DNA of 64,000 nucleotides. Origin: Bacteroidetes bacterium GWF2_38_335 (lineage in GTDB: Bacteria; Bacteroidota; Bacteroidia; Bacteroidales; GWF2-38-335). Location of the stretch: assembly GCA_001769535.1 (NCBI GenBank), contig MEOH01000011.1, positions 62,001 to 126,000 on the forward strand, read 5' to 3'. The stretch's first letter is position 1. Every line of letters starts with the position of its first letter. Under the pieces are notes generated by a model. The model was given only the letters and a program-made list of their open reading frames with translations, had not been told where the DNA came from and did not search any database. The position numbers and the translations under genes were made by a program. Below, one piece after another: positions 23,953 to 28,723 of this stretch.

Positions 23953-24057
23953 TACCGTGCATAAAATACACGGCAACCCCCTAGGCATCTACGTTGCAGA
24001 TAACAACCAACCACAAAGTGGTTCCCCAACCATACCTATGGGTTTCAACCCGTAGAA
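23953..24057. repeat. Triple-hairpin repeat, copy 1
   Basis: This 105-bp unit starts TACCGTGCATAAAATACACGG and ends ACCCGTAGAAG. It contains three small inverted repeats: around ATCTACGTTGCAGAT, ACCACAAAGTGGT and GGGTTTCAACCC. It is about 85-90% identical to the second copy 141 bp downstream. It lies in the 416-bp gap between the helicase gene and the redox operon, where no gene is seen. Confidence 0.8.
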
Positions 24058-24093
24058 GAGTATAACTCGCATAATTTGACTTTAAGTTTTAAA

Positions 24094-24198
24094 TACCGCA
24101 CATAAAAACACACGGCAACTCCCAGGCATCTGCGTTGCAGATAAAACCAACCACGAAGTGGTTCCCCAATCATACCTGCGGGTTTTAACCCGTAGAAG
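24094..24198. repeat. Triple-hairpin repeat, copy 2
   Basis: Second direct copy of the 105-bp unit, starting TACCGCACATAAAAACACACGG. The hairpin cores ATCTGCGTTGCAGAT, ACCACGAAGTGGT and CGGGTTTTAACCCG are all retained. Several differences from copy 1 preserve or improve the pairing, for example TGCGTTGCA against TACGTTGCA, which suggests selection on structure. The 36-bp spacer between copies is AT-rich and unrelated. Confidence 0.8.
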
Positions 24199-24349: not shown

Positions 24350-24733
24350 ATGAAAAAAATATTTTTAACCGGACTTTTATTCTTTTTCATTGCAGGAGCG
24401 ACAAATTTGTTCGCCTGTGAATTTGAATTTGAACTTGTTTCTGAAAAGAAAGAGATTTATAAAGTTGGAGATGAGATTATTGTGCATGTTAAAGTTACTT
24501 TTACTCACAGAGTTTGTCCATTGGCAATTGCTGATACCAAGTTTAAAACCAAAGGGCTTAAAGTTGTTGGAACTAAAGATTGGGAAGAAGTTTCAAGTGG
24601 TGTGTATGTAAGAAAACTGAAACTTGAGGTTACCGGAACCAAAGATGGAAAAATCCAGCTGATTGGCTCACGTACCTGCGATAAAGAGGGTGGATTTGGT
24701 TCCCTGACTCTTAAATGTACACCTGTTGAGTAA
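24350..24733 (+). CDS. Small exported protein, first gene of the redox operon
   Basis: A 127-residue protein with a signal peptide (MKKIFLTGLLFFFIAGATNL, cleavage near LFA-CE). The mature part is an all-beta, immunoglobulin-like chain (EIYKVGDEIIVHVKVTFTH, then GVYVRKLKLEVTGTKDGKI) with four Cys (CEFEF, RVCPLA, SRTCDKE, LKCTPVE) that could form two disulfides or bind metal. It precedes the membrane iron-sulfur gene by 12 bp. The family is not recognised. A periplasmic partner of the redox proteins is the natural guess. Confidence 0.72.
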   Translation: MKKIFLTGLLFFFIAGATNLFACEFEFELVSEKKEIYKVGDEIIVHVKVTFTHRVCPLAIADTKFKTKGLKVVGTKDWEEVSSGVYVRKLKLEVTGTKDGKIQLIGSRTCDKEGGFGSLTLKCTPVE

Positions 24734-24745
24734 AAACCTGACTGT

Positions 24746-25843
24746 ATGAAAAAATTTTTGGGGCTGATTATTCTGCTACTAATAATGAATTTTGCCGGCA
24801 TCAATGCATATGCCGGCTTTTCTGTTGAAAAGGATACCATCAAAACTGAAGCGGTTGATGACTTCGAAGCAGTTGATGACTTCGAGGAAGTGGATGATTT
24901 TGAAGAAGCCGGAAACGAATTTGAAGAGGTTTCTGAGGAGGAGGAACTTCCTCAAAACATTAATGAAGTTAAGGAAGAAACCGGCACTCCCGACTATGTT
25001 TATGATATTACACTGGAATGGTCATTATATGCTCTGGCTTTTGCCGTTGTTGCCGGATTTCTTGTGAGATTCAGGCAAACACGTAGTCTGCGCGGACTGA
25101 TTCTTCTTGCTTCATTATTCCTTTTTGGTTTTTACCGTGGTGGATGCCCTTGCATGCTTTCCAGCTTCCAGGATACCCTGTTGATTGTCATGGGAAATGA
25201 TGTTGCATGGCAAAATCTTGTGTGGTTTTTAGGTCTGATTCCAATTACCTATATCTTCGGAAAAGTATGGTGCGGATGGGTTTGCCACCTCGGAGCCGTT
25301 CAGGAATTCCTTTTCCTTCCATCTAAATATCATATTTTTAAAGGGGAATTGGCTGTAAAAATCATGAAAATAATCAGGTATGGACTTCTTGCTGCTCTTA
25401 TTGTTCAGCTGGGTGTAATGGGAAGTATTTATTTTTGCAGCATCGACCCGTTTAAAGCTATCTTTAATATGCATATTGAAGAGGAATATCTGACAATCAC
25501 CGGAATACTTATGGGATTGATTCTTCTCACATCATTGTTTTCTTACAGGCCTTTCTGCAAATCTGCTTGTCCGGTCGGACTTACCCTCGGATTGGTGAGT
25601 AAAATTCCGGGTGCCTCAGTTGTCGGACTAAAAGGAGAGTGTGCCGGATGCAAAGTGTGTAACAATGCTTGTAAATATGATGCTATTATTAGAAAAGACA
25701 AACATTCTGTTCTGAATAACAATGACTGTATTGCGTGTGGCGATTGCATGGATGCCTGCCATCGCAGCGGATTGGGATTTTTCAGAAAAAACAAGAAACA
25801 TAAAGACATTGTATATTGCAAAAATGAGTGCACAATTGACTAA
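24746..25843 (+). CDS. NapH/NosR-like polytopic membrane 4Fe-4S protein
   Basis: A 365-residue protein. After a signal-like helix (about 1-25) comes an acidic segment with three DDFE repeats (residues ~33-60), then about five transmembrane helices. The family marker WCGWVCHLGAVQEFLF and the later SACPVGLTLG match NapH/NosR/CcoG-type proteins, and GGCPCMLSS gives an extra CxC near residue 133. The C-terminus has two 4Fe-4S motifs, CAGCKVCNNAC and CIACGDCMDAC. Such proteins pass electrons between the quinone pool and periplasmic partners. It overlaps the next gene by 20 bp. Confidence 0.88.
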   Translation: MKKFLGLIILLLIMNFAGINAYAGFSVEKDTIKTEAVDDFEAVDDFEEVDDFEEAGNEFEEVSEEEELPQNINEVKEETGTPDYVYDITLEWSLYALAFAVVAGFLVRFRQTRSLRGLILLASLFLFGFYRGGCPCMLSSFQDTLLIVMGNDVAWQNLVWFLGLIPITYIFGKVWCGWVCHLGAVQEFLFLPSKYHIFKGELAVKIMKIIRYGLLAALIVQLGVMGSIYFCSIDPFKAIFNMHIEEEYLTITGILMGLILLTSLFSYRPFCKSACPVGLTLGLVSKIPGASVVGLKGECAGCKVCNNACKYDAIIRKDKHSVLNNNDCIACGDCMDACHRSGLGFFRKNKKHKDIVYCKNECTID

Positions 25844-27080
25844 AAAGCTGCTGCTTTTTATATTCCTGATTTCAATTATTCCCTTATCAGCCCAATGGTC
25901 ATGCCCATCAAAACTTGGTGCGCACCTGAAACCTTTCTGTAAAAAATTTCCGGTCGAATGGGCTGTCGAAGTGACAGTTGGACAAGGATGGATGAATGAC
26001 CGCAGTGTTCGCAATGCCATGATTTTTGCCGGGTTTAACTATTCCTTTAAAAAAAGCACTTTTTACCTTGAAGGCGGAAATAAAGCATGGTACAACTCAC
26101 TTGATGCCCCTGAAAACCTTAAAGGGCCTTTCCAAAATACAAAACCTGGCTTACGTGAACTGTTTTATAAGTATGGCAACAAGAATAAAAGTCTGATCGC
26201 CGGATTGCATTCTATGAAAATTGATGACTATTTTTTGGTTAATGAAAGAGGTGTTGGGTTGTCTTACAGACAGAAAATGGGAAATTTTAAATTTAATGCT
26301 GGTCTGGCAACTGTTGGAAAGGATTTTTCCCGTCAGGGCTCTTTTTGCAGTGTTTTCTTTTTATATAATGTTGTTAAGGATAGGGATCTGGCTCACCTGG
26401 GAAACCGGCCGGGCCAGACTAACTTCGGAGCTATGGTTCTTACCTGGACTCCGCCCGAAAAGAAAAAAGGCAGCGATGAGTTTTCATCAACCGACGAATT
26501 TGAATCTGAATCAGAGCCCGAAAAAAAGCTTATTAAAGAAGCCGGAGCTGTTTATTATCAGGAGTTTGGTTCATGGGTTAAAGAAATGCCAATCTATTTT
26601 GGCGGATTTACAACCCTCAATATTCATGACTTTGAGTTTCAGATAGAAGCTCTTGGACATTTGAAAACCGATAACAATGCAATTGTTTACAATCCTAAGA
26701 TTAACCGCACCTGGACATGGGATTCGGGAAGTCAGACATTATTCACTTTGGGATATATCGGGAAATACGATTTAAATACTGATGCAAAGGTTTTTCCACT
26801 TTTCAGCAATCTTTTTGCCGGTGAAGTACTTCGTCTGGATGCCGTGGATATGCCTTTTATGCAAGTGGCAGCCCGTCATAATTTTCCAAAAATAAGGGTG
26901 CAGCTTAAAGCTCAGGTTGTTGGCCAGTTCGAAAATCAGCATTTCAGGGAATATGATTTTTCCATTGGAAAAACATTATATAAAAACTTTAAACTAACCG
27001 GCATGTTCAGTAGGATTGAAGCCGACGTGCTTGATGAAATTTATTACATGGCAAGGTTTGAACTCAGGTTTACATTTTAA
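25824..27080 (+). CDS. Predicted outer-membrane beta-barrel of the redox operon
   Basis: A 418-residue protein. I chose ATG 25824, which gives a clear signal peptide (LLLFIFLISIIPLSAQ); the longer frame from 25722 lies inside the upstream gene. The mature chain shows repeated amphipathic strands (MIFAGFNYSFKKSTFYLEGG, FKFNAGLATVGKDF, VQLKAQVVGQFENQ) and ends ARFELRFTF with a terminal Phe, a hallmark of outer-membrane barrels. Four Cys occur (WSCPSK, FCKK, FCSVF). A charged Ser/Glu linker lies near residue 220. It overlaps the membrane iron-sulfur gene and is followed 8 bp later by the polyferredoxin gene. Confidence 0.78.
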   Translation: MSAQLTKKLLLFIFLISIIPLSAQWSCPSKLGAHLKPFCKKFPVEWAVEVTVGQGWMNDRSVRNAMIFAGFNYSFKKSTFYLEGGNKAWYNSLDAPENLKGPFQNTKPGLRELFYKYGNKNKSLIAGLHSMKIDDYFLVNERGVGLSYRQKMGNFKFNAGLATVGKDFSRQGSFCSVFFLYNVVKDRDLAHLGNRPGQTNFGAMVLTWTPPEKKKGSDEFSSTDEFESESEPEKKLIKEAGAVYYQEFGSWVKEMPIYFGGFTTLNIHDFEFQIEALGHLKTDNNAIVYNPKINRTWTWDSGSQTLFTLGYIGKYDLNTDAKVFPLFSNLFAGEVLRLDAVDMPFMQVAARHNFPKIRVQLKAQVVGQFENQHFREYDFSIGKTLYKNFKLTGMFSRIEADVLDEIYYMARFELRFTF

Positions 27081-27088
27081 GTTCTTGT

Positions 27089-28723
27089 ATGAAAGACGAA
27101 AAAGAAAAAAACGAAAATGTTGACCGTCGGGCATTTCTGAAGAAAGCCTCCCTGATGGTTGTGGGTGCAGCTGTTGCATCGGCACTGCCCGGATTGCAGG
27201 GTTGCAGAAAAGAGGACAGTCCGTATGGAATGTATCATGTTGATCCCCATAAATGTATTGGTTGTGGCGAATGTTTGGATCCCTGTTATTACAATGCCAT
27301 CATTCTTCCACAGAAAACAGAATATTTCATAGATACAGAGGATTGCATCGAATGTCAGGTATGTGTCCCGGTTTGTCCCGAAAAAGCTATTCATATAAGC
27401 AAAATTGGCTATTCTATTGACCAGGCAAAGTGCAAGGAGTGCGGACTGTGTGTTCCTGTTTGTCCTGAGAATGCAATTAATATTTCGGTTGTTGATTATG
27501 TCATTGATGAGTCAATTTGTCGCCGCTGTGGCGTGTGCATGCCTGTGTGTCCCGAAGAAGCAATTGATATTGTCAACCTTGATTACAGCATTGATGAGCT
27601 TAATTGCCGAAATTGTGGTCAGTGTGTACCATATTGTGCTCAGGGAGCCATTGACGTAACACCCATAAATTATTACATTCTGGCTGCATATTGTATCAAT
27701 TGTGGACAGTGTGTTCCGGTATGCTCGCAGGGAGCCATTGACATTTCAATTATCAATTATACGGTAAATTCTACCAATTGTGTTGGCTGTGGCGATTGCA
27801 TGACTGTTTGCGCCACGCAGGGCGACTGCCTTTCATGGGTTGGTGGTTATGATTATTACCGGGTAAAATCGACTTGTGGATGCGGTCCACATTATTGTGT
27901 AAGTGCTTGTCCCGAGGGAGCCATTACTATTGTAGGCGGAAAAGCCCAGATAAACCATAGTTTGTGTACCCGCTGTGGTGAATGTGCCGATGCCTGCCCG
28001 TGGAACGAAATTATTCCCTGCAAAGTTCAGCAGGATGCTGCCAGTTGCAATCATTGCGGTCAATGTTACACAGCCTGCGAATATAATGCAATAAACAGAA
28101 TTGTACCTTCCGACTCACATCCTTCAGTGATCAATACTGAACTTTGTAATCATTGCGGAGATTGTTTTAATAATGGTGCCTGCACCTATGGCGCGATAAG
28201 AAGTGATATTCCTGCAGATTTTCATACGCCATTTATAAATCAGGATTTATGTACCCATTGTGGCTCTTGTACGGCAAACAATGGCTGTCAATATGGGCAT
28301 ATTCATACCGCAGAACCTACGGGATATGAATCGCCGGTTATTCACGGGGATATTTGTACCCGATGCAATATCTGCATAGAAAATATTGCGTGTCCATGGG
28401 GAGCAATTTCAAGGATAGAGCCGCCGGGACATCATTTGCCGGTAATTATCACTGAAAATTGTACAAGTTGCGGTGATTGCATACAATTAGATGCGTGCCC
28501 CTTTGATGCAATTAATAATGTGGAACCCGATGAGTATATTCCGCCATACATCAGCAATAAATGCACAAGCTGCGGTGAATGTATTATTCAGAATGCCTGC
28601 CCCGATTATTTTGCCATAAAAAGAGATGTCCATATAGCTGAAATAGATAAAAAGGCATGCGCCAAATGCGGAAAATGTGAATATACCTGTCGTTTTGATG
28701 CAATCTCCCAGGGAGGAGATTAA
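27089..28723 (+). CDS. Exported polyferredoxin with sixteen Cys-rich 4Fe-4S motifs
   Basis: A 544-residue protein. The N-terminus has a twin-arginine-type signal (DRRAFLKKA, then a hydrophobic stretch) ending in LQGC (C39), so export as a folded lipoprotein is likely. From residue 56 to the end it is a chain of CxxCxxCxxxC-type motifs starting at C56, 86, 115, 144, 173, 202, 231, 263, 293, 320, 353, 388, 423, 458, 492 and 524. The first seven recur every 29-30 residues (CGxCVPVCPEKAI style). Numbers 11-15 recur every 34-35 with longer loops (CGDCFNNGACTYGAI style). Motif 8 is irregular (CGCGPHYCVSAC). It may hold up to sixteen clusters and act as an electron wire. Confidence 0.9.
   Translation: MKDEKEKNENVDRRAFLKKASLMVVGAAVASALPGLQGCRKEDSPYGMYHVDPHKCIGCGECLDPCYYNAIILPQKTEYFIDTEDCIECQVCVPVCPEKAIHISKIGYSIDQAKCKECGLCVPVCPENAINISVVDYVIDESICRRCGVCMPVCPEEAIDIVNLDYSIDELNCRNCGQCVPYCAQGAIDVTPINYYILAAYCINCGQCVPVCSQGAIDISIINYTVNSTNCVGCGDCMTVCATQGDCLSWVGGYDYYRVKSTCGCGPHYCVSACPEGAITIVGGKAQINHSLCTRCGECADACPWNEIIPCKVQQDAASCNHCGQCYTACEYNAINRIVPSDSHPSVINTELCNHCGDCFNNGACTYGAIRSDIPADFHTPFINQDLCTHCGSCTANNGCQYGHIHTAEPTGYESPVIHGDICTRCNICIENIACPWGAISRIEPPGHHLPVIITENCTSCGDCIQLDACPFDAINNVEPDEYIPPYISNKCTSCGECIIQNACPDYFAIKRDVHIAEIDKKACAKCGKCEYTCRFDAISQGGD

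Follow-up and report, generated by a model that had tools for sequence, protein, structure and literature searches.

A four-gene cluster from a Bacteroidales bacterium probably encodes an iron-sulfur redox system spanning the inner and outer membranes

In the porin-cytochrome conduits described to date, electrons exit Gram-negative cells via haem. The barrel of one of these, MtrB, is built of 26 strands, and its ∼30 Å opening holds the folded MtrA (PMC7198977). A different kind of system is formed by NapH and the Tat-exported NapG, which together act as a quinol dehydrogenase (PMC5449189).

Here I describe a cluster in which a NapH-type protein is encoded next to a polyferredoxin and an outer-membrane barrel. 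It was found in a 64,000-nucleotide stretch of the genome of Bacteroidetes bacterium GWF2_38_335 (contig MEOH01000011.1, positions 62,001 to 126,000; hereafter the window). The cluster spans positions 24350–28723, with all four genes on the + strand and intergenic spacings of +12, −20 and +8 nt. An initial annotation of the window had proposed four tightly packed or overlapping genes at this position, for a small exported Cys protein, a NapH/NosR-like membrane protein with two 4Fe-4S motifs, an outer-membrane barrel, and an exported polyferredoxin with sixteen motifs; coordinates, packing and gene contents all hold. The features are as follows, with the basis of each in brackets:

24350..24733, + strand: gene 1, exported 127-aa Ig-like Cys protein (AlphaFold2 model, homologue alignment)
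24746..25843, + strand: gene 2, NapH-type inner-membrane ferredoxin (family profiles, homologue alignment)
24857..24925, + strand: DEF-type repeats DDFEAVDDFEEVDDFEEAGNEF in the periplasmic tail of gene 2 (4 observed, 0.76 expected from tail shuffles)
25824..27080, + strand: gene 3, outer-membrane beta-barrel, 418 aa (AlphaFold2 model, fold search)
26448..26531, + strand: barrel loop 8-9 with DEF motifs DEFSSTDEFESESE (AlphaFold2 model, motif count)
27089..28723, + strand: gene 4, polyferredoxin lipoprotein with 16 cluster motifs (motif count, homologues, PDB match)
27125..27205, + strand: twin-arginine signal and lipobox of gene 4 (RRAFLKK...LQG/C), then RKED (sequence)
27875..27910, + strand: irregular cluster motif CxCx4CxxxC of gene 4, CGCGPHYCVSAC, residues 263–274 (same place in homologues)

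Gene 2 runs into the barrel gene, which begins with an ATG at 25824; a 452-aa barrel ORF from 25722 was rejected, as its start is too early. By eye, the neighbours on either side are a helicase-type ORF and a gene for a secreted protein of the PKD type, indicating that the four genes stand alone. Within the 0.4-kb gap upstream of gene 1 there is a 54-nt direct repeat (24005–24058 and 24145–24198, 91% identical, spacing 140). A search of the four-gene cluster for the haem motif CXXCH found none, the cofactor motifs there being 4Fe-4S, and no gene for a terminal or extracellular reductase lies within it. The four proteins probably constitute one redox system, spanning the inner membrane, the periplasm and the outer membrane, and of all the interpretations given here this has the strongest support.

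Gene 2 possesses a signal-peptide-like start and an acidic tail. It is predicted to have ∼5 TM helices, and two 4Fe-4S motifs lie near its C-terminus. The cluster Cys are all invariant in 7 homologues, and its membrane part contains two invariant CX3C(P) sites. It matches Fer4_5 in Pfam (E 2e-13), and its best NCBIfam family is NapH/MauN, at 79.9 bits, which is far under the napH cut-off of 213 bits. The positive-inside rule suggests that the tail is periplasmic and the ferredoxin domain cytoplasmic, matching the arrangement reported for NapH (PMC5449189). At several loci (L036, L025, L068–L071, L073) the NapH periplasmic tail contains extra Cys clusters (e.g. CASTCKSTTGCNSSC), mostly after the DEF motifs and ahead of the first helix, and these may form an additional metal or Fe-S site.

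NapH, MauN and CcoG relatives have roles in maturing other enzymes. The NapH-type protein and the polyferredoxin could likewise provide electrons for building the cofactor of an enzyme that is encoded elsewhere and resides in the outer membrane or at the surface, with the barrel as its secretion or assembly port. This would suit a cluster that contains no terminal reductase, but none of the loci has a conserved enzyme partner nearby, and I regard it as improbable.

Gene 1 is predicted by AlphaFold2 to form an all-beta, Ig-like sandwich (pLDDT 87). Three residues, Cys23, Cys56 and Cys110, are invariant in 17/17 primary homologues; the first is the N-terminal residue of the mature protein or adjoins it, Cys56 follows the tripeptide THR, and a conserved His is found three residues before it. 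For this small exported Cys protein, Pfam, NCBIfam and PDB sequence searches gave nothing useful and no known carrier family, and a fold search returned generic Ig-like matches only. The N-terminal domain of DsbD was considered as a fold relative, and rejected as its Z of 7.0 is too low to trust. At one locus whose genome has no barrel, a small lipoprotein carrying a single CXXCH haem motif (L070:2205-2552) lies near gene 1 and NapH. At three others, a gene-1 paralogue that does not possess the first and third Cys adjoins a permease (L033:4926-6441, L037:8267-9687, L038:4813-6008); in L033 and L037 the permease scores best against the SO_0444 Cu/Zn and SaoE efflux families, though below their cut-offs.

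The NapH-like protein CcoG reduces copper, or keeps it reduced. A metal-handling role can be drawn up for the whole cluster. Gene 1 would carry a metal (for example copper or iron, or an arsenic/selenium species), electrons would reduce this metal or keep it reduced, the barrel would let it pass, and the polyferredoxin would act as a low-potential store. The three invariant Cys and the conserved His of gene 1 are consistent with this, as are the extra Cys clusters of the NapH tails and the permeases beside the gene-1 paralogues. However, such a permease is found at few loci only, most loci show neither a known metal chaperone fold nor a regulator, and 16 clusters are far beyond the needs of a metal reductase, making this role unlikely.

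The 67 Cys of gene 4 correspond to 15 regular CxxCxxC motifs, the irregular motif, the lipobox C39 and two spare residues, so that the initial count of sixteen motifs was right, with one of them atypical. The best PDB match is MvhB (E 4e-24). From its twin-arginine signal and lipobox, gene 4 is expected to be exported by Tat as a lipoprotein. This prediction extends to its homologues, with a Tat motif in 7/7 and a plausible lipobox in at least 5/7, and TatC is encoded in 7/7 carrier genomes; the exported location proposed at the outset, rather than a cytoplasmic one, is therefore the predicted one. The seven homologues follow one plan, with a cluster number that varies from 10 to 22.

The initial annotation had interpreted the cluster as a possible ferredoxin-based porin conduit, with iron-sulfur clusters in place of haem. 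In such a conduit the polyferredoxin would take electrons from NapH across the outer membrane, either within the barrel or alongside it, to acceptors outside the cell. The lipid anchor of gene 4 and its variable cluster number, as a wire could vary, are in keeping with this proposal. In Bacteroides fragilis the surface signal of lipoproteins is SDDDD. A different surface signal, C-X-K-(D/E)2 after the lipid Cys, has been described (PMC5080379), and is matched exactly in the window (CRKED) and in G077. Nonetheless, it is only near in L022 and absent in four of the 7 homologues, so that it fits 2–3/7.

The barrel possesses a signal peptide and a C-terminal Phe, and its AlphaFold2 model (mean pLDDT 77) shows 18 strands, in agreement with the outer-membrane barrel initially predicted. 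No match was found in Pfam, NCBIfam or PDB sequence searches, nor was the barrel found among plasmids. The model matches the fold of AlgE (Z 27, 323 residues, rmsd 3.1) and of OprD-type channels (Z 24–26), and both charged residues and long extracellular loops of the protein are conserved, a pattern like that of selective channels. The predicted model, at a pLDDT of 77, thus points to a substrate channel resembling OprD and AlgE. Using one formula for both, the lumen is estimated at ∼23 Å for 18 strands of the predicted model, versus ∼37 Å for 26 strands. A ferredoxin chain would therefore be a tight fit at best, though it might still be accommodated, in a pore well below the width of the 26-strand MtrB sheath (PMC7198977).

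Gene distribution bears on this question from both sides. In 149 order-level relatives, 9 genomes possess the barrel. All 9 are among the 14 genomes with gene 1, and they include every one of the 5 with the polyferredoxin (Fisher p ∼2e-7 for polyferredoxin and barrel over the 149 genomes, ∼4e-6 with the one shared genus collapsed, kinship being ignored). In a 395-genome phylum sample, neither barrel nor polyferredoxin was found outside the window's genome. A scan of 85,000 species yielded 22 barrel loci, mostly from uncultured Bacteroidales, including sediment bacteria, with one each from Fibrobacterota and Myxococcota; a single cultured strain, Mangrovibacterium lignilyticum, is among them and possesses all four genes. 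The order gene 1-NapH-barrel, on the same strand, is found in nearly all loci with enough flank, in all three groups, and the linkage recurs in >20 distinct genomes. Together with the co-occurrence of polyferredoxin and barrel, this indicates that the grouping is not by chance.

Two loci encode NapH and the barrel as a single ORF, in which a signal peptide marks where the two parts meet (L033:1962-4565 and L038:1792-4389); in L038 the barrel frame is broken near its end. Other neighbours vary, with Rnf-type genes adjoining the module in L034:3-3634 and L035:6305-9141 (by eye) and Na+-NQR genes in L037:1-4111 (NqrF confirmed), both being ion-pumping electron complexes. A TetR-type regulator is found upstream in L029, L030, L034 and L040, and an RND-type transporter downstream in L029, L030, L039 and L040.

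Polyferredoxin and barrel are both kept even where they are unlinked, in G077 and G543, and in G077 all four genes are present on four contigs, so that co-retention is not merely a matter of linkage. That the two are unrelated neighbours, as the common occurrence of the barrel without the polyferredoxin might suggest, is accordingly very improbable, since the polyferredoxin was never found without the barrel in the 149 relatives (p ∼4e-6 with the one shared genus collapsed, kinship ignored).

Three near-complete genomes (G049, G053 and G076, 92–99% complete) possess gene 1, NapH and the barrel, but no polyferredoxin anywhere. It is likewise missing from most genomes behind the other barrel loci, the 92–99% completeness applying to the three named genomes; there is one polyferredoxin in the genome of L025, and none in that of L027. 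A polyferredoxin wire can therefore not be the basic function of the barrel. Conversely, gene 1 and NapH are found without the barrel in G052, G065, G138 and G063, marking these two as the probable older core of the module, a putative electron-export pair. From these partial sets, the build-up was probably gene 1 and NapH, then the barrel, then the polyferredoxin. In the barrel tree, a fully supported group of 12 without the polyferredoxin stands against a mixed group that includes all carriers. The polyferredoxin may have had one origin or more, as the tree requires several changes and has long branches.

The initial annotation had called for a search for the four-gene order across Bacteroidota, for joint occurrence of barrel and polyferredoxin, and for absence of multihaem cytochromes from the carriers. 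The gene 1-NapH-barrel order does recur, even across phyla, but the polyferredoxin is often missing beside the barrel, and while the polyferredoxin occurs only with the barrel, the reverse does not apply. The expected absence of cytochromes was rejected, as PF14522 gave matches (PF09699 did not), with NrfAH present in the window's genome and several multihaem cytochromes in Mangrovibacterium. NrfAH is an inner-membrane nitrite reductase, not a conduit.

What survives of the ferredoxin porin conduit is thus a single envelope-spanning system of four genes, with a polyferredoxin that is predicted to be exported and is found only where the barrel occurs. Against it count the many genomes that keep the barrel without the polyferredoxin, the narrow, channel-like 18-strand model, the multihaem cytochromes of the carriers, the fit of the surface signal to only 2–3/7 homologues, and the absence of an extracellular reductase gene from the cluster. 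On balance I consider a conduit across the outer membrane rather unlikely.

A further feature connects the two membranes. Most NapH tails contain two to seven copies of the motif [DEN][DEN]F, exceeding shuffled expectation, and the barrels carry it mostly in one stretch, corresponding in the model to loop 8-9, the sole long loop on the periplasmic side. For NapH tails and barrel loops together, these DEF motifs are above shuffled expectation in most genomes; in L042 they are weak or missing. The topology and the barrel model suggest that proteins of two different membranes both expose this short peptide on the periplasmic side, and lead to a testable rule, namely that a single periplasmic partner recognises the DEF motifs of either membrane. 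Since the NapH of L068–L071, in genomes without the barrel, keeps the motif, and gene 1 is its constant partner there, gene 1 is the first candidate binder.

I tentatively favour, at somewhat less than an even chance, a NapGH-kind electron export that works together with a dedicated outer-membrane channel, the polyferredoxin being a wire or store peculiar to one lineage. Gene 2 would draw electrons from the quinol pool or from cytoplasmic ferredoxin and bring them to the periplasmic side, where gene 1, the constant partner with its three invariant Cys, may act as an electron or metal carrier. Gene 1, or another periplasmic partner, would dock on the DEF motifs of the gene 2 tail and of the barrel loop, and docking would keep the reductant at the pore mouth. 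The 18-strand barrel could then admit a soluble acceptor, or release a reduced product, reduction taking place on the periplasmic side. In the window's lineage, the delivery arm would be the Tat-exported, lipid-anchored polyferredoxin, whose 10–22 clusters may conduct or store electrons close to the outer membrane. The direction of the electrons, the docking, the substrate and the job of the channel are all inferred, and up to 22 clusters seem excessive for a purely periplasmic polyferredoxin.

If electrons did cross the outer membrane, a lipid-anchored chain of 10–22 4Fe-4S clusters and its dedicated barrel would be a haem-free, iron-sulfur counterpart of the porin-cytochrome complexes, and sediment Bacteroidota would gain a new route of electron disposal at or beyond the outer membrane. 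A more modest reading still defines a new gene family set, with an Ig-like Cys protein and a barrel that has no Pfam family. The cultured M. lignilyticum, possessing all four genes, makes tests possible.

In the openly accessible literature, I found neither a ferredoxin-based outer-membrane conduit nor an exported polyferredoxin of the gene 4 type, and no description of this gene set, in line with the initial statement that no system of this layout was known. Its parts can nonetheless be compared with known systems. The module shares with the porin-cytochrome conduits (MtrCAB, Pcc) an inner-membrane donor, a periplasmic chain and an outer-membrane barrel in one cluster, but it has no haem motif and no surface cytochrome, its barrel has 18 strands and not 26, its polyferredoxin is dispensable in relatives, and electron passage across the outer membrane is hypothetical. 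The barrel has the predicted 18-strand fold of OprD/Occ and AlgE (Z 25–27), but only ∼10% identity to these and no Pfam match, and differs in its DEF-rich periplasmic loop and its linkage to redox genes. Gene 4 resembles the methanogen polyferredoxins MvhB and FwdF in its tandem 4Fe-4S repeats, but is predicted to be Tat-exported and lipid-anchored, and has no hydrogenase or formylmethanofuran partner. As in NapGH, a NapH-type membrane protein is paired with a Tat-exported multi-cluster ferredoxin, and an electron path from quinol to the periplasm is likely (PMC5449189). In contrast to NapGH, gene 2 is under the napH family cut-off, the polyferredoxin has 16 clusters (10–22 in homologues) where NapG has 4, and a lipid anchor, an Ig-like protein and a dedicated outer-membrane barrel are present, with no nitrate reductase. 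Since its parts are of known kinds (NapH, a tandem ferredoxin and an 18-strand barrel), the module is best regarded as a variant of NapGH-kind electron export, outside the Mtr/Pcc family.
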